A DNA stretch of 62,678 nt from the NCBI GenBank assembly GCA_026391655.1, contig JAPLDR010000100.1, positions 1 through 62,678 of the forward strand, given 5' to 3'. Shown piece after piece: positions 14,986 through 57,224 of this stretch. Source of the stretch: Bacteroidia bacterium (GTDB taxonomy: Bacteria > Bacteroidota > Bacteroidia > Bacteroidales > Prolixibacteraceae). A model generated the notes under the pieces. It was not told the origin of the DNA and searched no databases. It saw only the letters and a list, made by a program, of their open reading frames with translations. Both the position numbers and the translations under genes were made by a program. How positions within the stretch are numbered: position 1 is the stretch's first letter; every line of letters starts with the position of its first letter.

Positions 14986-15067
14986 ATGTTAAAATTTAAA
15001 TGCTTTAAACGTCTCCATTGATCCTCAATTTCAATGAAATGAATATCAAAAAAATGCTTCAACTTCA

Positions 15068-15240
15068 TTGATTATGCAAAAGTAGGACTTTAATCTAATG
15101 GGAAGATGATTTTTGCAGATTATTTGGGAAGAATGGATTGTGAAACAACAACCAAATCCCGAAGGGATGAAATGATTATAGAAAGATCGCATCAGAGCAA
15201 CCATAACCCGGAAAGGGTGGAATAATTTACCCACAACACC
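15068..15240. repeat. Bacteroidota palindromic repeat (CCCGAAGGGATGAAATGAT type)
   Basis: Contains TCCCGAAGGGATGAAATGAT and ACCCGGAAAGGGTGGAATAA, units of a GC-rich repeat that is common in genomes of this phylum and produces spurious frames of the FHPFRV/IPSGFG kind. It lies between citD and the orphan gene at 15320. Together with 14986-15319 it forms a 334-nt stretch with no gene. Confidence 0.6.
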
Positions 15241-15280
15241 AAATAATCAACCATCCCGAAAAATAAATTATGATTTTTAT

Positions 15281-15309
15281 TTGCAAATGGATTATTATCA
15301 ATAAATTTG
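15281..15309 (+). promoter_or_regulatory. Promoter of the orphan gene at 15320
   Basis: TTG at 15281-15283 and a perfect TAAATTTG at 15302-15309 are spaced as in Bacteroidota promoters. The ATG at 15320 is only 11 nt from the -7 element, so the transcript would be almost leaderless. Confidence 0.5.
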
Positions 15310-15319
15310 ATTTAAAAAA

Positions 15320-16273
15320 ATGAATCTATCTGAAAGGACAAAGAATGATTTGATTATAATCTTATCAAAATTTGAAAAGGATACTTATAATGAGGATGAT
15401 ATTGAAAAACTATTGTTAATTCTACGTGCATTTTTTAAGGGACAAGGTATTGTATGGGAATTAGCATCATTCATAGCGCATCCAGAAGCGAGGAGTACAG
15501 GCATTTTTCAAGAAGAAATAGATACAAATTATGCAATACTGAAATATCAATTAGTTAATAGTGAGAAATTTGAATATAATCCATCAATAGAGGATGAAAA
15601 TCTTAAAATAAATCTTTTAAAAATTAAATCCCATATTTTTAAAGCTTTAATATTGGGAGGAATAAAAAATTATCCAGAAAAAAATCTTCTGTCAAGTTTA
15701 AATCTAAAAAGAAAAGATTGTTTAAAAATTTTAAACGAAACATATATTGGAGTAAATGGATACCATCAATTGAAAGAATTCAAAAACATACCTATTATAA
15801 CTCAAATTTTCAATTTAGTGTTTTCATTTATTCAGTCAAAAATGATATTGTCAGAAGATAAGATTATCTCTCAATTTGAGTATTGTTTTAAGCAAATAAA
15901 CATATCCTTGAATTTAAAATTCAACTACCATAAGTTTTTAAAAGACAATGCATCACAGCTTTTATTATGCATAATATGTATTCTTCATTCAAGACAGTTT
16001 ATGTTATTCGATGGAAATATTGGTAAATGTGAAATAGGATTAGTAAAAGATGATACTCAAACATCATGGGCTTTAAATTTAAATGCGAATGTTGAGGTAG
16101 AATTACAAAAACATATATCTATATGCTGGTTAATAATGAGTTTACGAAAAAATATTACTCAATTTATTCCGGGATTAGAAAATGTTTCAGAGTCAGAAAA
16201 AAGATTAGCATTAAAATATTTTAACGTAATTCGCAACAAAGAGGGAAAATTAGTAGTAGGAAAAAAAATATAA
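15320..16273 (+). CDS. Hypothetical protein (AT-rich orphan)
   Basis: A 317-residue protein I do not recognise. It is rich in Lys, Ile, Asn and Leu, predicted mainly helical, with no signal peptide or clear membrane segment. One hydrophobic stretch, SQLLLCIICILHSRQFMLF (about 214-232), could be buried or membrane-associated. A region near 240-290 has alternating strands (KCEIGLVKDDTQTSWALNLN). The gene is visibly more AT-rich than the citrate lyase and Bat genes on either side and is bracketed by unrelated intergenic repeats, which suggests acquisition by transfer. Confidence 0.6.
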   Translation: MNLSERTKNDLIIILSKFEKDTYNEDDIEKLLLILRAFFKGQGIVWELASFIAHPEARSTGIFQEEIDTNYAILKYQLVNSEKFEYNPSIEDENLKINLLKIKSHIFKALILGGIKNYPEKNLLSSLNLKRKDCLKILNETYIGVNGYHQLKEFKNIPIITQIFNLVFSFIQSKMILSEDKIISQFEYCFKQINISLNLKFNYHKFLKDNASQLLLCIICILHSRQFMLFDGNIGKCEIGLVKDDTQTSWALNLNANVEVELQKHISICWLIMSLRKNITQFIPGLENVSESEKRLALKYFNVIRNKEGKLVVGKKI

Positions 16274-45497: not shown

Positions 45498-45800
45498 ACC
45501 GAGTTAAAGGTTTACCCGTCCGGGTAGGGTTTCTGATCATCCGAGTTAAAGATATAGTCACACGAGTTAAGGTTTTGGTCGTCCGGGTTGAACAGGACGG
45601 TCATATTCTTGATCTGCATGGCAAAATCTATAACAGGGCGGCTTTCCCAACCTACAGGGCGACGATTTCTACTAACAGGGTGAGGAAAAACTTAACAGGG
45701 CGGCTTTCCCAACCAACAGGAAGACTATTTTTGCTAACAGGGCGGGAAAAAACATAACAGGACGGCTCTTCCCTTCTGTAGGGCGACGTCCCGCTCAGCA
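45498..45800. repeat. 21-bp minisatellite, two unit families
   Basis: Family A: five exact 21-bp units from 45498 to 45602 built on TCCGAGTTAAAG then GGTTTTGGTC. Family B: about eight 20-21 bp units from 45633 to about 45800 built on ACAGGGCGGCTTTCCCAACC, starting at 45633, 45654, 45675, 45695, 45716, 45737, 45757 and 45778. The period equals seven codons, so the plus strand is open with a heptad-like RVKxLVV and LTGRLSQ pattern. No start or family supports a gene. The rest of 45486-45982 holds nothing recognisable. Confidence 0.88.
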
Positions 45801-45982: not shown

Positions 45983-47620
45983 TTATCGTAAATGATCAAT
46001 TTTCAAATAGATCTTTTCCAAAAGTTCTCTATGGTTGCTACTAAATGTTTCTAAATAGTATCCTATAAATAACTCTTGATCATTTTCCACTTCAATCTTT
46101 AAACTACTGAACATTGTACAATTATACTCGAGAGTAAATTGACTAAAAGCAAGACTTCCAATAATTTTCGAATTTCGTTCTAAAAAATTAATTGTTTGAT
46201 GAAAATCCTCTTCAGTTTCTTCAGGTATTTCGTACATCACACAAACTCTATTATGAATTCCAGCAGCAAAGGCATCTTTTAAAACATCATTCATAATTGT
46301 AATGGTTGTGCCTTTTCTTATTTTTTTCAAAATCTTATCTGATCCGGACTCCATCCCCCAAATCAGAACATCACAACCATTCATAGAAGCATCTAACAAA
46401 ATATCGAAGTTCAAATTTTTGTCAAATCTTGCAAAGCCTCTCCAAAATATTTTCTTTTTCAAATTTGATACAATATTTGAAATTGAAGTAAGTCTTTCTT
46501 TATTTAATTCAGAATCAACTAAACAAATATATTCAGTATTATACTTATCAATTAACTTTTCAAAATCATTAAATATGACTTCTTTTTTCTTTATTCTATA
46601 CTTGGGGTCTAAAATTGGATAACTACAAAAAGTACATTTGCCCCATGAACATCCCCTGGAGCTTTGATAAGGTAATGTATTTTTGACATCATAGCTGTTT
46701 AAATCATAGTCTACGAATGTAGGTGCAGGGAGATCGTTTAAATCAATATAATCTGGCTTAATATTCCCAGAAACCTTATTATCTGTCAATGTCAAAGTAT
46801 TATTAACTTCTGAGTTATCCTTGGTAATAATATTATAAAGAGTTTTCTCACCTTCACCAACTACAAAATAATCAATATACTTAAACAGTGAAGAATTCTT
46901 TCTAATTTTCGTTGATAACTGCGTTACCCATGCTCCTCCAATAATTACTTTTACATCCTTGAAATTTTCTTTGATAATTTTAGCTAAAGTAAAAGAAGGT
47001 ATCACTTGATTTATTCCAGTAACTGAAATTCCATAATATTTATATTCATCTTGGAATATTTCACTGAAATAAGATTTGTAGAACTTATAATAGGGATTAT
47101 TAAAGTTATCTTCTAAAAGGGATAAAATGCCATCACTTCTTAATGCATATCTACTTAAAGAGGCATTGAAATAATATTGATCATGATAAAAATAAAGTGG
47201 AATTTCGTCTTTTTTAAAATTGTGAGAAGTTTTAAATATTTCGCTATTGAAATTAATCCAAAATAATAAAATTAACTCACGAATATTTTTGTTGACAATT
47301 AAGCCTTCGTTTAATACTTTATAGTTAAAATCTTCTAAAGACAGAGATAGGTAACTTTTAATTTTGATATAATTGTTAATATCGATGCATGAATCTTTAT
47401 TGAATTCTGATTCAGTAATAATAAGTTTTAACCAATGATAAAATCCTTCGAGGTTTTTCTTTTGGGAAATCTTTTTCCAGAAAAAAAGGTTTAAATCAAA
47501 GCTTTTATTTTCAATGTTATATTGGGTGAGATAAGCAGATAATTGCGGAAGACTCAAATATGGCAAATCAATATCCCATAGTGGAGGGAAAATTAATTTT
47601 ATTTTTTCTTGCTTTGTCAT
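45983..47620 (-). CDS. B12-binding-type radical SAM enzyme (RiPP maturase-like)
   Basis: A 545-residue enzyme. The N-terminal half has the layout of B12-binding radical SAM proteins (KLIFPPLWDIDLPYLSLPQL at the start, VKVIIGGAWVTQLSTKIR and IDYFVVGEGEKTLYNII at about 225-266), although no DxHxxG cobalamin motif is seen. The radical SAM core begins with LPAPTFVDYD and QSSRGCSWGKCTFCSYP, with cluster cysteines at 324, 329 and 332. VLIWGMESGSDKILKKIRKG and VCVMYEIPEETEEDFHQTIN follow. The DLPxP...RGCxWGxCTFC arrangement is shared with RiPP maturation radical SAM proteins. It starts with an ATGA overlap. Probable peptide-modifying enzyme, reaction unknown. Confidence 0.85.
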   Translation of the reverse strand: MTKQEKIKLIFPPLWDIDLPYLSLPQLSAYLTQYNIENKSFDLNLFFWKKISQKKNLEGFYHWLKLIITESEFNKDSCIDINNYIKIKSYLSLSLEDFNYKVLNEGLIVNKNIRELILLFWINFNSEIFKTSHNFKKDEIPLYFYHDQYYFNASLSRYALRSDGILSLLEDNFNNPYYKFYKSYFSEIFQDEYKYYGISVTGINQVIPSFTLAKIIKENFKDVKVIIGGAWVTQLSTKIRKNSSLFKYIDYFVVGEGEKTLYNIITKDNSEVNNTLTLTDNKVSGNIKPDYIDLNDLPAPTFVDYDLNSYDVKNTLPYQSSRGCSWGKCTFCSYPILDPKYRIKKKEVIFNDFEKLIDKYNTEYICLVDSELNKERLTSISNIVSNLKKKIFWRGFARFDKNLNFDILLDASMNGCDVLIWGMESGSDKILKKIRKGTTITIMNDVLKDAFAAGIHNRVCVMYEIPEETEEDFHQTINFLERNSKIIGSLAFSQFTLEYNCTMFSSLKIEVENDQELFIGYYLETFSSNHRELLEKIYLKIDHLR

Positions 47621-47952
47621 AAATCAAAAGTTAGAATGCATTCATCATATATACTCAATTTTTGACAACATGAAATATTAATTTCATTAGACTTGATACA
47701 ACCAAGCAAAACTCCAATATGTGAATTACATTCAGTTCCATTCGAAGTCAAATTTTTACAATTTTTAAAGGCAATAGTAATTTTATCTTCTAATAAAACA
47801 ATTTTAACATTTTGATAATTTCTACCCGAAATTTGTTCGCCTTCAATAATTGCCCTTAATGATTTCGGAATGTATAAAGAAACTTCATTTTTATGATATG
47901 AAGATTCAATATAATCAGACCAAAAAACTATTTCTTTTTCCTTTAAATTCAT
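47617..47952 (-). CDS. Small Cys-rich protein of the RiPP island
   Basis: A 111-residue protein with no family I recognise. The N-terminal half has VFWSDYIESSYHKNEVSLYI and ends in beta-like segments. The C-terminal half holds six cysteines (FKNCKNLTSNGTEC, LLGCIKS, NISCCQKLSIYDEC), enough to bind a metal or Fe-S cluster or to form a thiol site. It starts at the ATG overlapping the previous stop (ATGA at 47952-47949); an ATG four codons upstream is also possible. Its stop overlaps the radical SAM start. The coupling suggests a partner or chaperone of that enzyme. Confidence 0.7.
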   Translation of the reverse strand: MNLKEKEIVFWSDYIESSYHKNEVSLYIPKSLRAIIEGEQISGRNYQNVKIVLLEDKITIAFKNCKNLTSNGTECNSHIGVLLGCIKSNEINISCCQKLSIYDECILTFDL

Positions 47953-48800
47953 AACTTTTTGCATTGTAATAACAACTGGGTAGTTTCTTTATCTGAATCT
48001 TCATCAAAATCGAAGTATTCCAACTTAATGATTTTTGCTTTACAACTTAAATAATCAATGATTTTCGAAATCGGAAACCCAAAACCGTTATCAATTTTTG
48101 TAAAAACCTGAAGATGAAATATCGGAATAAAAAAATCCTTCAACCTATTGAATGGTTTACTATAAACAGGAATAGTGATCCACAATTCCCCATTTTTATT
48201 TGTCTTTTTTAATGCTTCATCTATCACACTATATGGATTTGGCACATGTTCTAACAAATAAAACATCCAAATAAAATTAAAATACTCATCTTCAAAATTT
48301 AAACTATTTGCATTTGATATTTTAAATGCTGAGGAGTAGTTGCTATAATCAACAATATCAGCAAAATAAAATTCAAATGGTAATTCGAAGATATTTTCTT
48401 CAAAACAATTACCACAAGCGAGATTTAAAATCTTTGAGTTTTTATCTATAAGATCAACTTCGCTTTTCAATAAATTGTGAGAATAAAAGTTGGATTGATG
48501 TAATTTACTATTGCGATTAAAGACCTTATCTAAATAGTAATTAAGGCAAAGAGAAAATTTCTCCGAAAAACCATTATTAAAAGTCTCGGGAATTAATGGA
48601 TCGAAATAAATTGCAGTTCTTTTGTTGTCTCTTGATTGTACAATATATGTTTTTGTATTTTCTGTAACTTTTTGAATTATTAAGAACTCAGATAATGCAA
48701 GATAATCGATAAATTGACCTGTATAATTGATAAATAATAAATCACAATCATTATTTGGCAGATAAAGTTTTAAACAAAATTCATTGATCATATCAATCAT
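47949..48800 (-). CDS. SAM-dependent methyltransferase-like protein
   Basis: A 283-residue protein. The first 110 residues are a distinct domain of unknown type (LYLPNNDCDLLFINYTGQFI). From about 115 it carries a class I methyltransferase fold: KILNLACGNCFEENIFELPF (SAM-binding loop at about 123-142), YFADIVDYSNY, SLNFEDEYFNFIWMFYLLEH then VPNPYSVIDEALKK, of the Methyltransf_11 type. It overlaps the PqqD stop by 8 nt. Likely to methylate the peptide or a precursor, or to supply methyl groups; target inferred from context. Confidence 0.8.
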   Translation of the reverse strand: MIDMINEFCLKLYLPNNDCDLLFINYTGQFIDYLALSEFLIIQKVTENTKTYIVQSRDNKRTAIYFDPLIPETFNNGFSEKFSLCLNYYLDKVFNRNSKLHQSNFYSHNLLKSEVDLIDKNSKILNLACGNCFEENIFELPFEFYFADIVDYSNYSSAFKISNANSLNFEDEYFNFIWMFYLLEHVPNPYSVIDEALKKTNKNGELWITIPVYSKPFNRLKDFFIPIFHLQVFTKIDNGFGFPISKIIDYLSCKAKIIKLEYFDFDEDSDKETTQLLLQCKKL

Positions 48801-49101
48801 TTATTTCTTTTATAAATTGCAATTCAATAAGCTCGGTTAACAACTCTTTTATATCATTTGTGATTACATTAACATCCACGTCATATTCTTCAATTATGAT
48901 CTCCGCTATATCAATTGGAGAGATCCCATTTAGTATTTGATTTACAATCCAGAATCCAGTTTCAGGCAATTCATATATTAAACCAGTTTTTCGGTTTGAA
49001 AATAAAAAACGCCGTTCTTCATGAAACATTGTTTCAATACTTTCAATTTCTTGTCTAAGCAAATATTTTGCAGCCACTAAATCTCCATCAGAATAATTCA
49101 T
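48793..49101 (-). CDS. PqqD-like peptide recognition protein (RRE)
   Basis: A 102-residue protein matching the PqqD pattern: RRFLFSNRKTGLIYELPETG (about 30-49), then FWIVNQILNGISPIDIAEII, a DVDVNVITNDIKELLTELIE helix pair and a final LQFIKEI. Stand-alone PqqD proteins bind the leader of precursor peptides and present them to radical SAM or other modifying enzymes. It begins 8 nt after the stop of the 36-residue peptide gene and overlaps the methyltransferase-like gene. Of all genes in the island this is the strongest argument for a RiPP system. Confidence 0.85.
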   Translation of the reverse strand: MNYSDGDLVAAKYLLRQEIESIETMFHEERRFLFSNRKTGLIYELPETGFWIVNQILNGISPIDIAEIIIEEYDVDVNVITNDIKELLTELIELQFIKEIND

Positions 49102-49109
49102 AAGAGAAT

Positions 49110-49220
49110 TTACTTTTTATTTCTTATCGCGCCAGCGGTAAACGTTTTTGTTGCATCCGATCCACTTGGTAGGGCAATAATTTTCCCTTTTATTCCTTTA
49201 TATTCTTTAAGTTCTTTCAT
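49110..49220 (-). CDS. Candidate RiPP precursor peptide, 36 residues
   Basis: ATG at 49220, TAA at 49112-49110. The product opens MKELKEYKGIKGKIIALPSG and ends FTAGAIRNKK. It has a Lys/Glu-rich N-terminal half that could be a leader and a C-terminal half rich in Ser, Thr, Ala and Gly (GSDATKTFTAGA), with no Cys. It begins 15 nt after the nucleotidyltransferase stop and ends 8 nt before the PqqD start, in the same tight operon. It is too short for routine gene calling. No GG leader or known precursor family is recognised, so the precursor role rests on size and position. Confidence 0.7.
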   Translation of the reverse strand: MKELKEYKGIKGKIIALPSGSDATKTFTAGAIRNKK

Positions 49221-49235
49221 ATAATTGAATTTATT

Positions 49236-49946
49236 TTATTCTACAAAATTATACCATTCATTTTTATTTGTGAAGATTTTTTGAATTTTCCAATAAATAT
49301 TTTTCTTACTATCTAACAACTTGTTTTTAAGCAGTATTACATGATTGCCTATTTCCGTCTCGCCTTGTAATTCTTTTTCCAAAAATTCCATGTTCATTAG
49401 AAATGTTTTATAAAAACCGTAATCATTAAGTAACACCTTCGATACTCTCTCATAATACTCACCTTCTATGAATTTATACTCAAAAAGTAATGCACGGACA
49501 TCAAGAAAGTCAAAATACGAATTCGGTAGATTAACATTCTGCATTTTGGACAGAAAAAGATCTGGTATAGTTATCGTAGGATAGTTATTTATAAGTCTAT
49601 TTTTTAAAGCAATTCTATGACAATAATTTAACTCATCAAATACAAATTCAAACAACACACCTTCTTTAATAAAATACTGTTTTTTATATTTAAGAAAAGG
49701 AGTTTCGATATTTTCAACATAATCATTGTGTAATAAAATATTTCTAATTGCTTTTAATTCAGAATATTTGCAAATAATATCAACATCTTTTATTCTTCTG
49801 TTTTTTTCAATCAAATATTTATGCGAAGATGGACAATTAATCCATATTGCAACACCTCCATATAATCTTGCCAATATCTGATTATTTTCAAAAAGCTCAA
49901 TAATGCCTAATGCTTGATCAATTATATTTACATTGCTCGTTTCCAA
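49236..49946 (-). CDS. Nucleotidyltransferase family protein of the RiPP island
   Basis: A 236-residue protein with the minimal nucleotidyltransferase signature: ARLYGGVAIWINCPS with the Gly-Gly at about 30-31 and RRIKDVDIICKYSEL with the metal-binding Asp pair at about 54 and 56. A third acidic strand may be LFEFVFDELNY. The rest is helical. Similar uncharacterised nucleotidyltransferases sit beside PqqD-like genes in some modified-peptide clusters. It could adenylylate a peptide, protein or small molecule; alternatively it is an AbiEii-like antitoxin-system enzyme. It starts 2 nt after the phosphoesterase stop. Confidence 0.75.
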   Translation of the reverse strand: METSNVNIIDQALGIIELFENNQILARLYGGVAIWINCPSSHKYLIEKNRRIKDVDIICKYSELKAIRNILLHNDYVENIETPFLKYKKQYFIKEGVLFEFVFDELNYCHRIALKNRLINNYPTITIPDLFLSKMQNVNLPNSYFDFLDVRALLFEYKFIEGEYYERVSKVLLNDYGFYKTFLMNMEFLEKELQGETEIGNHVILLKNKLLDSKKNIYWKIQKIFTNKNEWYNFVE

Positions 49947-49948
49947 TT

Positions 49949-50893
49949 TTATCTTTCTAACCTATGAAACTTATTGATACAATTTTCGCTTAAATCAAAA
50001 TAATACCCTCTCAAAATACCCTGCGCATATTCAGAACCAGGATTAACACATAGAGTTTTTTGGATGAAAGTCTCAGCACAAGACTCATGAGTATGTCCGT
50101 GCAATGAAAGTAAAGGTTGGGAATCTTTTATTAATTTAAGAATGGCTTTACTTCCAACATGTACTTTTTTTATTTCACCTCCCTTGAATACAATTTTATA
50201 CTGTTTGTCAATTAATGGGGCATTATCCAATAAAGTATTGTACGGCGGACAATGAAAGTTAAAAATACAGTTCCCCATACGTTCGATGTTACCACCAATT
50301 ATCCTTTTAATTTCAATTTCAATTTCTTCTTCTGTTTTTTCTCTTGGTGTTGCCCATGGAGTAAATGGAACAGATGAATAATTAAGTATTTGAAATTCTT
50401 TAAAATTCACTATATTATTTATGCCGATTAAAATATTCTTACTTCTAAACCCATTTAGTGCACTATCCAATTCAATCAAATCATCATTTCCGGGACACAA
50501 TAAAAGTTTGTAATCTCGATCTTCATCATTATATTCTTTAACCCAATTCTTTAACCGTTCAATTACAGCTCCTAAAATTAAACCATCTGCCTTGAGCTGA
50601 TCATTTAAACACTCAACATATTGCTTAAAAGTTAATTCTAAAATATATTTTCCATAGTCTTCTGAATCTCTTAGAAATTCTGGATAATTCTTAATTTTCT
50701 CCTTTTGAATACAATTTGAACCCCCACTAACAATATACTTTTCCCCATTATCTTCAATTACAGGGATTACTTCTTTACCAGATAAATCTCCTGAGATAAT
50801 CAGTAAATCTATATTCAAATCTTTAGCCACTATTAGTGCTTTAAGGTACAACAGACTTGAACCATGAATATCTGTGACAAAAAAAATCTTCAT
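49949..50893 (-). CDS. Metallophosphoesterase
   Basis: A 314-residue calcineurin-like phosphoesterase with all metal-ligand motifs in order: VTDIH (Asp8, His10), SGDLSG (Asp36), CPGNDD (Asn136), FNFHCPP (His214) and LHGHTHE (His267, His269). No signal peptide, so cytoplasmic. It is coupled to the nucleotidyltransferase gene (2 nt gap), suggesting the pair adds and removes or processes a phosphate or nucleotide group. It could instead hydrolyse a signalling nucleotide. Substrate not deducible. Confidence 0.88.
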   Translation of the reverse strand: MKIFFVTDIHGSSLLYLKALIVAKDLNIDLLIISGDLSGKEVIPVIEDNGEKYIVSGGSNCIQKEKIKNYPEFLRDSEDYGKYILELTFKQYVECLNDQLKADGLILGAVIERLKNWVKEYNDEDRDYKLLLCPGNDDLIELDSALNGFRSKNILIGINNIVNFKEFQILNYSSVPFTPWATPREKTEEEIEIEIKRIIGGNIERMGNCIFNFHCPPYNTLLDNAPLIDKQYKIVFKGGEIKKVHVGSKAILKLIKDSQPLLSLHGHTHESCAETFIQKTLCVNPGSEYAQGILRGYYFDLSENCINKFHRLER

Positions 50894-50899
50894 TTTAAC

Positions 50900-52486
50900 T
50901 TATTCTGGTGGTAGTTGCGAATAAATATTATCAGTAGAAATACCATTTTTGAAATTCACTTTTTGCTGATACCAATATAAAATTACTAATATCGTTAATA
51001 TACCAGAAAGAATAGCCATAATTACATAACTGTGAACAACCTCTTTCAAAGTAATAAAGATAAAAAACCAACCAAAGAAAAAAGTAAAAAATCCACACAA
51101 TGTAATCAGGGGAATTCCAAAGACGGATCCTTTTACTGGCAATTGTCTATAAATTTCCGGCTTTTTATATGGCAGAAGAATTCCAGTCAACCCGTAAAGC
51201 CAGAAAATAAAAAAGGTACAAAACATTGTAGCACCGATAACCAAACTTATGTTATATGTCTGAAAAATCACACCAAAAATAGCTATTAAAGCAACTATAT
51301 GAGTTGCCCAAGTTGGTGCACCATTTGACTCATTATATTTCGAAAAAGAATGAGGTAATGCACGATCCATTGATAAGGCAAAAATGATTCGCGAAGTAGA
51401 TAAGAAAATTGGTGGAATGCTATTTACAAACCAAAGGACAATCATAAGGGCTAAACATAAACCCAAAAGAGGAATTCTTGAAATAGAAATAATGTAAAAT
51501 GGGATGGATGGTTTTACGTTGATGAGGTTATCTGGTAATAAAACCTTGGCTTGATCCTGAGAAGTAACAAAATCAAAAGCACTAATAAAATCTCCAAAAG
51601 GTATAAAAACAGCAAATGCCAGTAAAATATAAATTAAACTAACCCCCAACCACCCCAATAAAAATCCTTTTAATAAATTTTTATTGGGATTCTGAATTTC
51701 ACTTCCTGCATAACAAGACATTTCAATACCATTATATGCCCATATCACAATCAAAAAAAGCCCTACAGTTGAACCAAAGGAAAATGAAGTATGCTTCCAT
51801 CCAAAACCACTTGCGAGAGTTATAATATTTTGGAAGGAGCCAGTACCCCAAGTGCTATTAAATATTTCAATTGCATTCTGCTTTGATGCAAAAAAGAAAT
51901 AAAGAATAACAATTAAACTTGTAAAAAGAGGAATATAAAAGAAAATTCTCATCACTTTTTTAAAAGTTTTCATCCCTTTAAGTGTAACAAACCAGAATAA
52001 TAATACCCAAATAATTCCACCAACTATATTGCCAGCTTTTGAAGAGAATAGTTCGCCAACATAAATTAGATCATAAAACTCATAAGCTTTACCGGCTATG
52101 ATAAGAATACTGCCCAGAATATTCATAATGATATTTCCCAATATTCCAGCGACTAAGGCTTGACCGAAAACATATAACATTGCACCAATATATCCCATCG
52201 TTGGACTTACAACACGACTAACCGCTACATATAAGCTCCCTGCTCGTGGCATACCTGAAGCAAGTAAAGAAATGAGAAAAACTATAGGTAAAAAAACTAT
52301 CATACCAATTATAAATGCCACTCCGACACTGCCTCCCGGATATTTAGTTTGCATATTGACAGAATAGTATAATATACCTGATGCAGCAGGTGCCGCAATT
52401 GACATTATCATTATATCAAACCAGGATAATTCTTTAACTAACCCTGATTTTTCTCTTATAAAAGGATTATTCGACATAGAAATCAT
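50900..52486 (-). CDS. APC superfamily permease
   Basis: A 528-residue inner-membrane protein with about 12 membrane helices. The N-terminal WFDIMIMSIAAPAASGILYY, GMPRAGSLYVAVSRVVSPTM and IVIWAYNGIEMSCYAGSEIQ are typical of the amino acid-polyamine-organocation family. Such carriers usually import amino acids; export is also known. In this operon it could supply an amino-acid substrate or move the product. No ABC exporter or protease is seen in the cluster. The start at 52486 overlaps the preceding gene by 20 nt; a second in-frame ATG lies three codons in. Confidence 0.85.
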   Translation of the reverse strand: MISMSNNPFIREKSGLVKELSWFDIMIMSIAAPAASGILYYSVNMQTKYPGGSVGVAFIIGMIVFLPIVFLISLLASGMPRAGSLYVAVSRVVSPTMGYIGAMLYVFGQALVAGILGNIIMNILGSILIIAGKAYEFYDLIYVGELFSSKAGNIVGGIIWVLLFWFVTLKGMKTFKKVMRIFFYIPLFTSLIVILYFFFASKQNAIEIFNSTWGTGSFQNIITLASGFGWKHTSFSFGSTVGLFLIVIWAYNGIEMSCYAGSEIQNPNKNLLKGFLLGWLGVSLIYILLAFAVFIPFGDFISAFDFVTSQDQAKVLLPDNLINVKPSIPFYIISISRIPLLGLCLALMIVLWFVNSIPPIFLSTSRIIFALSMDRALPHSFSKYNESNGAPTWATHIVALIAIFGVIFQTYNISLVIGATMFCTFFIFWLYGLTGILLPYKKPEIYRQLPVKGSVFGIPLITLCGFFTFFFGWFFIFITLKEVVHSYVIMAILSGILTILVILYWYQQKVNFKNGISTDNIYSQLPPE

Positions 52487-53921
52487 TTAAAAAATTAGAG
52501 ATTTGTTGAACTTTATCATTGTTTATATCTAATAATTCTTGCGAAAAAGTTTTGGGGAACAATCTAGGGTTTGACCAATTTCCTAGAGTTTCATCTATAA
52601 TTATTTGACAATCATTTGTTTTTAATTCTTTAAAAACAGGAAAATTATTTAATGGTTCTTTTAAAAGGATTCTTTCATTTAATATATTTTCAATGTAAGA
52701 TATGTATCCCTTATGTAAAGCTCCAGAATCTCTTTCTAAAATTCTAATGAATGGAAATTTAGTGTCAATTATACCTAGAATTTCACTTTCACCAATTCGC
52801 ATTTTATTATTTATCTCAATAATCCGACTTTTCAAAAAGAAATTCAGGTCACAGTCTTTGATTTCTTTTAGCAAGCTCGACTTATCAAATACATATATAT
52901 CAATTTTTAGAATAGAATTTAATATGTAAAACGGAATGATTCTTTTTGAAATGTATTCTAATGAATACCTATTAAAATCAACAACAAGAATTCTTGATAC
53001 TCTCAGACTTGAATTATTTAAAAGACCTCTTTTCGTATGAGCCAATATTCTTATGAATTCTTTATCGTTAAACCAAGTATATTCATCTGATTTTAAAAAT
53101 GTTGAATCAGTGGTAATTATTGATGCAACCTCATCCATAGAAAGATGGTCAATAATTTTGCAAAGTATATCAATATATATTTTTATATTTTGATTAGATG
53201 CAATTTCATATTTCCGAATGGATGAAGGTATATGCTTATATGTTGAAAAAAATAAATCGTGAATTGCTTCATACGCTTTTTTATTATCTTCTTTTAACTT
53301 AGTTGAAATCAAAGGGAGAGATGGTTTAGTTATCCGGAAACCCTCAATAAATATTTTACAGTTTTCAGCTGGCAAATACGGTACAATAGGTTTGAAAATA
53401 CTAATATCTAAATCTCGTATACATTTTTCACATGATATGCCTTTAAAATTCTGACAAATCAAACATTCTACATCAAATCCAGATAGGTCTCCTATTTCAA
53501 TTAATGTTGTTTTTGCTAAATAGTTTTCTGCAAAAATTGCAAGATAAGCAAAAAGAATAGGAAATAATTGTTTTAGAGGATATTGAACTATCTCATTATC
53601 AAAATCTTTTTTAAGAACTTCACCTTTTTCTGATTTATTCGAAAATGCAATAAATATTTTCTCCGACCAAAAAATTTTATTTGAATCTGAAAGATTTAAA
53701 TCATCAATAGTTGCTACGACAATATTGAGCTCTTTAAAATTATCTTCCTTTAAATCTTTGATTTCAAAATCATATATGCTTATGTTACTAAGCTTGTCTT
53801 TTATATAGTTTATTAATTTCCTATAATCATTTCGAAGTTTAGTATCACTCCAGAAAAAAACAATACTATTAATTGTTTTTTTCTCATCACTCACTTTCTG
53901 GATTTTATCCTTTAGTTTCAT
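52467..53921 (-). CDS. Orphan protein with a CxxC-CxxC motif
   Basis: A 484-residue protein I cannot assign. It opens with a Rossmann-like run (INSIVFFWSDTKLRNDYRKL, FKELNIVVATIDDLNL, KIFIAFSNKS), resembling a receiver or TIR-like fold in the first 100 residues. A cysteine cluster CLICQNFKGISCEKC at about 153-167 could bind zinc or an Fe-S cluster. The second half has ILVVDFNRYSLEYISKRIIP and IDIYVFDKSSLLKEI. No membrane helix. It is translated in overlap with the permease gene, so it belongs to the operon, perhaps as a regulator or a modifying enzyme. Confidence 0.65.
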   Translation of the reverse strand: MKLKDKIQKVSDEKKTINSIVFFWSDTKLRNDYRKLINYIKDKLSNISIYDFEIKDLKEDNFKELNIVVATIDDLNLSDSNKIFWSEKIFIAFSNKSEKGEVLKKDFDNEIVQYPLKQLFPILFAYLAIFAENYLAKTTLIEIGDLSGFDVECLICQNFKGISCEKCIRDLDISIFKPIVPYLPAENCKIFIEGFRITKPSLPLISTKLKEDNKKAYEAIHDLFFSTYKHIPSSIRKYEIASNQNIKIYIDILCKIIDHLSMDEVASIITTDSTFLKSDEYTWFNDKEFIRILAHTKRGLLNNSSLRVSRILVVDFNRYSLEYISKRIIPFYILNSILKIDIYVFDKSSLLKEIKDCDLNFFLKSRIIEINNKMRIGESEILGIIDTKFPFIRILERDSGALHKGYISYIENILNERILLKEPLNNFPVFKELKTNDCQIIIDETLGNWSNPRLFPKTFSQELLDINNDKVQQISNFLNDFYVE

Positions 53922-53933
53922 AGCAGTCTATTA

Positions 53934-54545
53934 CTATTTCAATAAATAACCTCTCAGTGTCCGAATCAATATTGCACGAGATGTGTAAAATTCGCTAATA
54001 TGTCTCAGATTACTACTTGTATCACTTTGAAATGCCATTCTTAAAGTTGTTAACTTATCTTTCAAATCATCACATTTCTCTTTTATGATCTTCTCTTCAT
54101 TTTCATGAATTAGATCTTCAATTTCAAAAGTGAAATTGTCTAGATATAATTCTAAAGATTGTAATATAAATGTAATTTCATTATGATTTCTAGTATGGGC
54201 TAACTCATAATTGAGTTGATCAACTCCGTTTCTTAAAATTTCAATAAAAGAATTGAAGGTTGAAGATTTTATTTGTGTAACTAAGTTTATTTCGTTAAAA
54301 AATTCTCCCACTTTAGAGAACTTATATAACACAAATACATTGACAAAAGTCAAAAAAGTACCAAAGATGCCTGAAACATAGCCCGCGAATTCATACCATT
54401 TAGATATTTCATTTGGGAAAGGATGCTTTACAAATTCTCCTACAAAAAGCGAAAGTAAAAAAATAGTTATTATGACACCCACAAATAATAATATTTTCAA
54501 AATGGTATAAATAAAATCGCTTTTTTTATTATTATTGGATCTCAT
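53934..54545 (-). CDS. Two-helix membrane protein, first gene of the RiPP island
   Basis: A 203-residue protein with two membrane helices (FIYTILKILLFVGVIITIFL at about 11-30 and FAGYVSGIFGTFLTFVNVFV at about 48-67) and a cytoplasmic helical tail with coiled-coil character. The overall plan recalls putative phage abortive-infection membrane proteins (PF16872 type) but I see no diagnostic motif. It starts at the ATG at 54545 and is followed after 12 nt by the orphan CxxC gene. The operon promoter is expected in 54546-54640, where AT-rich sequence with near-matches to TAnnTTTG occurs. Confidence 0.6.
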   Translation of the reverse strand: MRSNNNKKSDFIYTILKILLFVGVIITIFLLSLFVGEFVKHPFPNEISKWYEFAGYVSGIFGTFLTFVNVFVLYKFSKVGEFFNEINLVTQIKSSTFNSFIEILRNGVDQLNYELAHTRNHNEITFILQSLELYLDNFTFEIEDLIHENEEKIIKEKCDDLKDKLTTLRMAFQSDTSSNLRHISEFYTSRAILIRTLRGYLLK

Positions 54546-54638: not shown

Positions 54639-55260
54639 TCAAGTTAAAAATGCGACAAATTCATTCAAAGATGAATAAAAATTTGGGATGATATATTGAT
54701 TTTGTTTTTTGCTTGGTCTTAGATTTGCTTTGTTCTGTATCATTTTAATATACTCTCTATCGTACAAATCGAAATTGCTTCCTTTTATTATGTATTGCTT
54801 GATTAGTTTGTTCTTATGTTTAAGAATCCCCCTCTCCAATAAAGAATATGGGTATGCAATATAGAAGTCAGCCCTCAGTTTTTTGGCGTTTAATTCATGC
54901 TGGGTAAACTCTGAATCGTCATAGAATGCAAGCGTGTTAACTTCATCCCTAAAGGCAAATAGTAATCTTACCGTTGCTTTAGCTACATCCTCGGCTTGTT
55001 TGCCAGAGTCCATCTTTTCCATCAGCAAGAAGCCCATTTTGCGCTCGGCAATTGTGATGATCCTTTGCCATTTCACCAATAACTGTGACAATTTTCCTGT
55101 CCCCACACCGTTCTTGGGTATCCACAATGGCAAGTCACAACTCTATTGACACTTAATTTTTGATGTTCACCTGCTTGCAACTCCTCGGTCGCTTCCGGTG
55201 TTTTTAACCGATGGCGAGTATGGTTCCGGATGCGAAGAATAGAAGCAGGTAGAACTAATC
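54639..55260 (-). pseudogene. IS30 family transposase remnant
   Basis: The 164-codon frame ending at 54639 reads as the catalytic C-terminus of an IS30 transposase: ITIAERKMGFLLMEKMDSGK, AFYDDSEFTQHELNAKKLRA then DFYIAYPYSLLERGILKHKN (with the second Asp and the Glu of the DDE triad), and RPSKKQNQYIIPNFYSSLNE. Upstream, pieces such as NHTRHRLKT appear in another frame to about 55260 and the N-terminal DNA-binding half is gone. Frameshifted and 5'-truncated, hence inactive. It marks the upstream border of the RiPP island. Confidence 0.8.
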
Positions 55261-56387: not shown

Positions 56388-57224
56388 ATGAAAAAAGAAA
56401 ATACAATAAGACTATTTGAGTCAAAAAAAATAAGGGTTTTGTGGGATGACAGTACTGAAAAGTGGTATTTTTCTGTAATAGATGTAATTGAGATATTAAC
56501 CGAAAGCAAGAATCCACGTCGTTATTGGAGTGATTTAAAGATAAAGCTAAATAAAGAAGGAAGTCAACTGTACGAAAAAATCGTACAGTTGAAAATGGTA
56601 GCCTTTGATGGAAAAATGCGGGAAACAGATGCTGCTGACACGGAGCATATTTTACGATTAATACAATCTATTCCGTCACCTAAAGCTGAACCATTCAAGA
56701 TGTGGTTAGCAAAGGTTGGTTATGAACGAATTGAGGAAACTGAAGATCCCGAAATTGCCTTTGATCGAGCAATGGAGACATATCTAAAAAAAGGATATTC
56801 GACTAATTGGATTAATCAAAGACTCAAAAGTATTGAGGTACGTAAAGAGCTTACTGATGAATGGGAGTCACATGGGATTAAAAAAGGACAAGAATATGCG
56901 ATATTAACCGATGAAATTACAAAAGCATGGGCAGGTTTAACGACAAAAGAGTATAAAAGTATCAAGGATTTAAAGAAGGAAAACCTTCGAGATAACATGA
57001 CAAATTTGGAGTTAGTTCTAAATATGCTTGCAGAAACATCGACCACAGAATTATCGAAAAAGAAAAAGCCCAAAACATTTACAGCGAGTAAAAAAATTGC
57101 TCAAAAGGGTGGGGAAGTTGCTGGTAATGCAAGAAGAGATTTAGAGAAAAAACTTGGAAATAGTGTGATTAGTCCTTTAAATGCAAAAGGACTAGGACGA
57201 AAAGACGATGAACAGATTGAATAG
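56388..57224 (+). CDS. BRO-N / DinD-like protein, copy 2
   Basis: A 278-residue paralogue of the protein at 41003 with the same two-part plan: BRO domain (IRLFESKKIRVLWDDSTEKW, YFSVIDVIEILTESKNPRRY, ILRLIQSIPSPKAEPFKMWL) and DinD-like C-terminus (KENLRDNMTNLELVLNMLAE, QKGGEVAGNARRDLEKKLG). The two copies are clearly homologous along their whole length but well diverged, so the duplication or separate acquisition is not recent. It has its own promoter and is flanked by direct GC-rich repeats. Confidence 0.85.
   Translation: MKKENTIRLFESKKIRVLWDDSTEKWYFSVIDVIEILTESKNPRRYWSDLKIKLNKEGSQLYEKIVQLKMVAFDGKMRETDAADTEHILRLIQSIPSPKAEPFKMWLAKVGYERIEETEDPEIAFDRAMETYLKKGYSTNWINQRLKSIEVRKELTDEWESHGIKKGQEYAILTDEITKAWAGLTTKEYKSIKDLKKENLRDNMTNLELVLNMLAETSTTELSKKKKPKTFTASKKIAQKGGEVAGNARRDLEKKLGNSVISPLNAKGLGRKDDEQIE

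Follow-up and report, generated by a model that had tools for sequence, protein, structure and literature searches.

A compact run of ten genes in the genome of a Bacteroidia bacterium (family Prolixibacteraceae, assembly GCA_026391655.1) is best explained, in our view, as a composite of two modules. The operon lies in contig JAPLDR010000100.1, of which we analysed positions 1 to 62,678 (the window, a stretch of 62,678 nucleotides). Its first module, an APC permease, a calcineurin-like metallophosphoesterase (MPE) and a small nucleotidyltransferase (NTase), is a module of its own, with a separate existence and a linkage that we observe in archaea and bacteria. The second, which includes a PqqD protein, a methyltransferase, a radical SAM enzyme and a short open reading frame (ORF), is a plausible but unproven cassette for a carrier peptide or for a ribosomally synthesized and post-translationally modified peptide (RiPP). 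We give this composite reading, with the transport and methylation roles proposed below, a probability of about 0.58. The original prediction had taken the NTase, the phosphoesterase and the permease as RiPP partners, and this is the part of it that the comparative data do not support.

The operon spans positions 45983-54545, with the ten minus-strand ORFs where they had been predicted, overlapping or separated by small gaps. Their successive stop-to-start distances are 12, -20, 6, 2, 15, 8, -8, -16, and -4 nt, i.e., from -20 to +15 nt. From 5' to 3', the genes and the features within them are as follows.

53934-54545, minus strand: gene 1, a 203-aa protein with hydrophobic N-terminal stretches (judged by eye rather than by a membrane prediction) and no family above cutoff.
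52467-53921, minus strand: gene 2, a 484-aa orphan with no family above cutoff.
50900-52486, minus strand: gene 3, the APC permease of the triad (AA_permease_2 above the Pfam cutoff).
50903-50944, minus strand: conserved C-terminal tail of the permease, with Gly515 in 31/32 and Pro526 in 32/32 of the aligned permeases.
49949-50893, minus strand: gene 4, the calcineurin-like MPE of the triad (Metallophos_2 above the Pfam cutoff).
49236-49946, minus strand: gene 5, the small NTase of the triad, with a TTG start (alignment and structure model).
49779-49787, minus strand: the DxD of the NTase, Asp54 and Asp56, invariant in 25/25 aligned sequences.
49110-49220, minus strand: gene 6, a 36-codon ORF, candidate precursor or carrier peptide (from the null model of ORF length).
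48793-49101, minus strand: gene 7, a stand-alone PqqD, candidate RiPP recognition element (RRE; above the Pfam cutoff).
47949-48800, minus strand: gene 8, a class I methyltransferase (above the Pfam cutoff) whose N-terminal part is without assignment.
47617-47964, minus strand: gene 9, a 115-aa orphan with no family above cutoff.
45983-47620, minus strand: gene 10, a radical SAM enzyme, possibly of the cobalamin type (Pfam; the best NCBIfam match, TIGR03975, is below cutoff).
46625-46651, minus strand: the radical SAM cysteines, CX4CX2C, in the motif RGCSWGKCTFC (pattern match).

The operon is AT-rich against both flanks, as first noticed. Its GC content is 28.3% (24.7-34.2% in individual genes). 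The 2-kb flanks have 42.6% (preceding) and 36.8% (following) and the whole window 39.0%, and the left edge of the composition change is sharper than the right one. Pfam and NCBIfam scans back the named genes, including the predicted methyltransferase, phosphoesterase and APC permease, except for the B12-binding part of gene 10, a partial match that misses its cutoff, and the NTase family PF14907 (below cutoff). In the 484-aa, 203-aa and 115-aa proteins and in the 36-mer, no Pfam or NCBIfam family reaches its own cutoff. Rfam and terminator scans gave nothing informative for the locus.

The evidence for a separate triad comes from loci in other organisms. A plasmid search with the MPE and the NTase as queries found the haloarchaeon Halobellus limi, where the two genes are adjacent with an APC permease next door, and a plasmid of Thermomicrobium roseum, with a permease, an MPE and no NTase match. 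A profile built from three MPEs (that of the window and those of two plasmid seeds) found 36 loci in genome contigs, giving 38 MPE-family loci with the seeds themselves (L060 and L061). The permease lies within 3.5 kb of the MPE in 34 of these 38 loci, the NTase is present in 29, and both are present in 27, among archaea as well as bacteria. In the window, the A1-family MPE adjoins the APC permease and the DxD-bearing NTase, which makes this locus a member of the triad. The order and strand of the three genes occur in nine combinations among the 38 loci; hence, the linkage seems to have been retained through repeated rearrangement. Going by their labels, the organisms of these loci include archaea (Thermoproteota, Hadarchaeota, Asgard, halophilic archaea, Thermoplasmata, and Nitrososphaeria) and bacteria (Caldisericota, Actinomycetota, Chloroflexota, Spirochaetota, Planctomycetota, and Ignavibacteriae), with a few of these labels being doubtful. 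For example, the triad proteins of L085 and L088 are nearly identical, yet these loci are labelled as different phyla (Roseiflexaceae and Singulisphaera). Those of L069, L070 and L072 are also nearly identical, and the label "Bifidobacterium breve" there groups with other metagenome-assembled genomes of Actinomycetota. Both sets probably include mislabelled or misbinned contigs, and such near-identical loci may make one lineage count more than once. None of the other seven proteins of the operon has a phmmer match at E < 0.05 in the 38 loci, a search in which only close relatives are detectable and several contigs are short.

The linkage is also found starting from the permease. With this protein as the query in 12 triad genomes or records, the MPE is at 15 of the 16 loci and the NTase at 11 (within about 1.5 kb). 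Among them, four permease paralogues had not been used for finding these 12 genomes, and the MPE lies beside three of these. A further sample has 101 genomes from the phylum to which L087's genome belongs (labelled Chloroflexota), and 21 of these encode the permease at E <= 1e-30. This sample gives 29 permease loci (counted from 31 permease places, one being already held as L106, where both partners are present, and one being without a locus): 21 have the MPE, 15 the NTase, and 24 at least one of them. The triad is rare in the window's own phylum: among 394 other genomes, the NTase profile matched only twice and marginally (E of 6e-4 and 9e-4). The 148 genomes sampled from the phylum of the Ignavibacteriae genome gave, besides that genome itself, a single marginal match, whose coordinates are identical to those of one of the former two. 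Hence, the two samples probably overlap.

Several observations weigh against this part of the composite reading. The phmmer search of the 38 loci missed PylB, which is itself a radical SAM protein, and detects close relatives only. There is no NTase match in 9 of the 38 loci and no permease match in 4, and contig ends explain some of these cases, not all: the incomplete triads L069, L078, L081, and L095 are at contig ends, and L061, L074, L077, L080, L092, L096, and L097 are less easily explained. In L080, the NTase and the MPE are adjoining and a permease match is absent from the 11.5-kb contig. Finally, for 5 of the 29 permeases in the Chloroflexota-phylum sample, both partners are lacking at distances of up to about 1.5 kb. 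We suggest that the triad is a widespread transport unit, and apparently an undescribed one. No description of it, or of the whole cluster, was located in the open-access literature (most subscription journals being outside this scope), and the triad is not mentioned in the accessible part of the Asgard pyrrolysine paper (PMC9723677).

What could these three proteins do together? The call of a nucleotidyltransferase had to be refined: the protein scores 18.3 bits against PF14907 (NTP_transf_5), below the 31.2 cutoff, but the enzyme type itself is backed by the invariant DxD and by a confident predicted structure (pLDDT 93.1) that resembles nucleotidyltransferases. Gly30, Arg50, Asp54, Asp56, His110, Lys134, Gln136, and six further columns are invariant in all 25 aligned sequences. 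The PDB matches of the model (Foldseek) start with MenT1, followed by ANT(2'')-Ia, tRNA nucleotidyltransferases and LnuA; one E-value is below 0.001 and the named matches range from 2e-4 to 7e-3. Enzymes of these kinds transfer nucleotides to tRNA or drugs. The window NTase shares with MenT1, ANT(2'')-Ia and LnuA the predicted fold and the DxD, which we take to be a common motif, but has 9-14% identity to them and is tied to a permease and a phosphoesterase. The MPE has conserved Asp, His and Asn residues, presumably the calcineurin-type motif. The C terminus of the permease is strongly conserved, with a Gly about 11 residues ahead of a near-terminal Pro (Gly515 and Pro526 in the window).

This tail raises the possibility, which we consider unlikely, that the NTase and the MPE reversibly nucleotidylate the permease or a partner protein, rather than a small molecule, and so act as a switch, with the tail as docking site and the RiPP cassette as cargo that uses the regulated permease. 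The conservation of the tail, a linkage that is shuffled but kept, and the varied metabolic neighbours of the triad would all fit such a switch. However, the tail has no invariant Tyr, Ser or Thr and is also found on permeases without a nearby MPE, and the best PDB matches of the NTase include small-molecule and tRNA-acting transferases. Two narrower ideas were rejected: a tail tyrosine as the nucleotidylation site, because the aromatic position is variable (Y, H, F or other), and the tail as a marker of MPE-linked permeases only, because unlinked ones carry it too. The target of the NTase could still be a protein or a tRNA, which counts against the small-molecule role that we favour for the triad in the composite reading.

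The neighbouring genes provide some hints on the transported compound. With families assigned from cluster representatives, the BLAST clusters of neighbours in the 38 loci include aldehyde dehydrogenases (ALDH, 8), Fe-type alcohol dehydrogenases (Fe-ADH, 4), glutamine-synthetase-III-like proteins (4), DAO/GCV_T-type proteins (3), and CDP-alcohol transferases (3). A choline kinase gene follows the NTase in L091. PylB, PylC and PylD score above cutoffs in L081, and the same clusters are present in L075. In both loci, which are labelled Asgard, these genes are directly upstream of the permease and the MPE, with the NTase also present in L075. This is a possible tie of the triad to methylamine use. 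Choline or methylated amines fit several of these neighbours and could perhaps be substrates, but the theme is thin and a number of details speak against it. The ALDH of L060 has BADH as its best match, with 471.6 of 668.6 bits, below the NCBIfam cutoff. In L066, the ALDH fits glutamate-semialdehyde dehydrogenase best, the Fe-ADH matches lactaldehyde reductase and then the choline dehydrogenase GbsB, and the DAO/GCV_T protein is a third case, all of them below their NCBIfam cutoffs. Other triads adjoin asparagine, formamidase, CoA-transferase, AllG-type or sugar-type genes. The nearest tree relatives of the window adjoin genes of NAD kinase, AcnX, thiamine, citrate-type functions and a class III aminotransferase, and none of the choline set is among the genes scanned beside them. 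As a separate observation, L071 (labelled Ignavibacteriae) has in one run the triad, a second MPE-family gene, an asparagine-synthetase-A-like protein and an asparaginase. This second MPE-family gene encodes a Metallophos plus FGE-sulfatase protein whose N-terminal part resembles the anti-phage protein DS8 (below cutoff).

The phylogenies place the window among distant organisms. In the permease tree, it groups with L062, L063, L064, L065, and L067 at full support (100/100), and in the MPE tree it forms a seven-row set with L062-L065, L067, and L068 (97/93). These six loci all have permease, MPE and NTase genes in a single direction and in the same order as the window. The nearest triad relatives of the window are Thermoproteota/Hadarchaeota/Caldisericota loci, with the caveat that its branch length of 2.7 in the MPE tree makes this position unsure (long-branch effect). 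The MPE tree was made without L095 and L096, and the permease alignment and tree without L068, L069, and L078 (short). Proteins in the trees and in the alignment that gave the permease tails are stop-to-stop ORFs, untrimmed to start codons, and NTase ORFs longer than 320 aa were reduced to their last 300 residues in that alignment. Tree placement, AT-rich composition, the absence of a close radical SAM relative (139 family genomes) and the absence of a relative of the 484-aa protein (100 genomes) together suggest that the operon was probably acquired horizontally. The latter protein was looked for in the relatives sample (100 other genomes), in the plasmid collection and, by a single pattern scan, in viral contigs, and no match was found. 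A virus-borne origin is unsupported: four viral-contig pattern scans (radical SAM, MPE profile, PqqD, and 484-aa protein) gave no relative. Nor is a defence system suggested by PADLOC, which gave PDC-M51A for the radical SAM enzyme (51.2 bits) and two hits for the MPE, PDC-S10 (27.6 bits) and GajA (16.7 bits), but nothing for the other eight proteins.

The surroundings of the operon have some features of their own. A Bro-N gene (56388-57224) and a 164-aa ORF without Pfam match (54639-55133) near its 5' end are possible traces of mobile elements. Just past its 3' end is a tandem repeat (45623-45773; 62-nt unit, about 2.4 copies, 84% matches). Another AT-rich patch of the window, with 27% GC at 15001-16000, overlaps a 317-aa ORF without Pfam match (15320-16273).

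The peptide half of the operon is more difficult to place. The predicted 36-codon peptide gene stays a candidate: it occupies the 134-nt gap between the NTase and PqqD genes, the sole sizeable gap of the operon, and under a first-order Markov null (20,000 trials) an ORF of at least 36 codons arises in only 0.6-0.8% of cases with ATG and in 1.1-1.9% with ATG/GTG/TTG. Its third-position GC (24%) is inside the range of its neighbours, and the window's own genome has no second copy. The PqqD-like protein was rightly called as well, with 37.1 bits against PF05402 (cutoff 23.4), and is by family a candidate RRE. Its single-sequence model has an N-terminal helix followed by strand-strand-helix-helix-helix-strand, and its top four PDB matches are B1 chains of lasso systems with leader peptides (E of 0.25-1.6). 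Gene 10 was predicted to be a B12-type radical SAM enzyme. The radical SAM part stands (44.3 bits, cutoff 29.5, and the CX4CX2C motif), but the B12 part is partial: PF02310 scores 23.5 against a cutoff of 32.1 bits, at residues 192-264 and for the second half of the profile only. The best NCBIfam match, at residues 175-481, is TIGR03975, the C-methyltransferases of RiPP maturation. These are points against the peptide half as we read it, since the TIGR03975 score (129.7 bits) is far under the 281.85 cutoff, the PqqD model has a pLDDT of 61.6, and its PDB matches are weak (best E 0.25).

A further point on this side is that the second module is a singleton in the data searched. No close radical SAM relative was found in 394 other genomes of the phylum, 294 of the order and 139 of the family, samples that may overlap and in many genomes of which only a few first-look candidates were scored. 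The best relatives are 31% identical (phylum) and 27% identical (order). None of the 21 genome regions around radical SAM relatives (20 plus the G591 region), nor four plasmid records, has another gene of the cassette. The genome-contig scan with the radical SAM protein alone and the plasmid searches with the 484-aa, methyltransferase, PqqD, 115-aa and 203-aa proteins gave nothing useful, and the cysteine-spacing pattern matched in only 6 of 29 loci, so that it has little meaning beyond the window. A PqqD-family match exists in 6 of 16 triad genomes: it is on a different contig in G498 and G503 and about 394 kb away in G501, its coordinate exceeds the length of the triad contig in G1081 and G1082, and in G1079 a comparison of 40-mers at 100-base steps finds nothing in common between its locus (L151) and the triad contig L062. 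Elsewhere in the window's genome are one more related radical SAM gene and two more genes of the PqqD family (G000:C55:115017-115955, G000:C80:162093-162284, and G000:C83:14635-14799). On a plasmid of Desulfocapsa sulfexigens (L003, 6015-9695), gshB, a C45 peptidase gene and a radical SAM gene like that of the window stand in a row, which is possibly an unrelated pathway.

How does this cassette compare with known ones? According to the accessible part of its description (PMC9303977), the tmo pearlin cluster for 3-thiahomoleucine has a carrier peptide, an RRE protein, a methyltransferase, a B12 radical SAM enzyme and a transporter, and additionally a PEARL (peptide aminoacyl-tRNA ligase), a DUF692 protein and a metalloprotease. 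This is the closest architecture that we found, as both have, here in candidate form, a short peptide and a separate RRE, along with a methyltransferase, a radical SAM enzyme and a transporter. Here, in contrast, none of the ten operon proteins matches the PEARL, DUF692 or metalloprotease families, and the transporter belongs to the triad. We thus reject pearlin membership for want of a PEARL family match in the operon, the rest of the genome being outside that search. Lasso peptide clusters, as far as the available text of PMC7533575 goes, can hold nucleotidyltransferases and PqqD, and the B1 matches of the PqqD model (at weak E-values) and the NTase are points of likeness. Yet the window NTase fails PF14907 and groups with triad NTases, and lasso membership was rejected because no B2 protease or asparagine-synthetase-like cyclase family is matched in the operon. 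As had been noted, there is neither a dedicated exporter nor a leader protease among the ten proteins by Pfam or NCBIfam; this search covered the operon and left out proteases elsewhere in the genome, and the missing protease, like the missing PEARL, counts against the composite reading. The main text of a survey of Bacteroidales RiPPs (PMC10352776), in the part available, has neither "nucleotidyl" nor "phosphoesterase".

These comparisons bear on the idea that the whole operon is one new, integrated RiPP class, where the NTase and MPE nucleotidylate and de-nucleotidylate the 36-mer and the permease moves the finished peptide in or out. The tight packing into one operon, with no gap longer than 15 nt, and the partners found in lasso clusters speak for it. 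We find it quite improbable, as the triad stands without close peptide-modification relatives in distant archaea and bacteria, in the same order in six loci, and its NTase is not recognised by PF14907. The claim that the cluster makes a modified peptide is therefore kept in part: PqqD, the TIGR03975-like radical SAM enzyme, the methyltransferase and the peptide ORF packed together suggest it, but the data do not support the triad genes as its partners. Similarly, the combination was rightly seen as unfamiliar, in that the papers located do not describe it, but it is better read as a transport module joined to a plausible cassette than as a class of its own. Could the two modules have met by accident, after separate acquisitions, with no functional link and with a 36-mer that may not be a precursor? 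The first module does stand alone elsewhere and no second locus in the data searched joins the halves. Tight packing, a common AT-rich composition that ends near the operon ends, and a peptide ORF of a length unlikely by chance make such an accident rather doubtful.

Under the composite reading, we infer substrates, direction of transport, enzyme activities and a functional link between the modules as follows. The APC permease would carry an amine or a compound resembling an amino acid, perhaps one related to choline or methylated amines. The NTase would add a nucleotide to a partner that bears a hydroxyl group. The simplest candidate is the compound being transported, or a downstream form of it; ANT and Lnu enzymes, which nucleotidylate drugs, provide an analogy. 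The MPE could then hydrolyse the product of the NTase or a related phosphoester, and the pair could trap, activate or gate the compound. In the other module, PqqD would hold the leader of the 36-mer, and methylation, of the peptide itself or of a residue attached to it, would be the task of the radical SAM enzyme and the methyltransferase. In the window locus, the permease may move a small amino-acid-like product or building block, which would account for the lack of a dedicated peptide exporter. A bolder version is only tentative and, to us, somewhat unlikely: an undescribed inter-domain system where addition and removal of nucleotides trap or gate an amine in transport, wired here to a new type of carrier-peptide methylation pathway that makes and moves an amino-acid-like product without a PEARL or peptide exporter.

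If the composite reading is right, three gene families that remain linked across very distant archaea and bacteria, in Asgard archaea also beside pyrrolysine genes, gain a function that can be tested. The case would also be a warning that, in RiPP genome mining, a distinct transport module may end up counted as part of a "new class." If the peptide half is confirmed, it would add a methylation cassette without its own exporter or protease in the operon. And if the transporter indeed has its own nucleotide writer and eraser, this would be a new logic for amine uptake.

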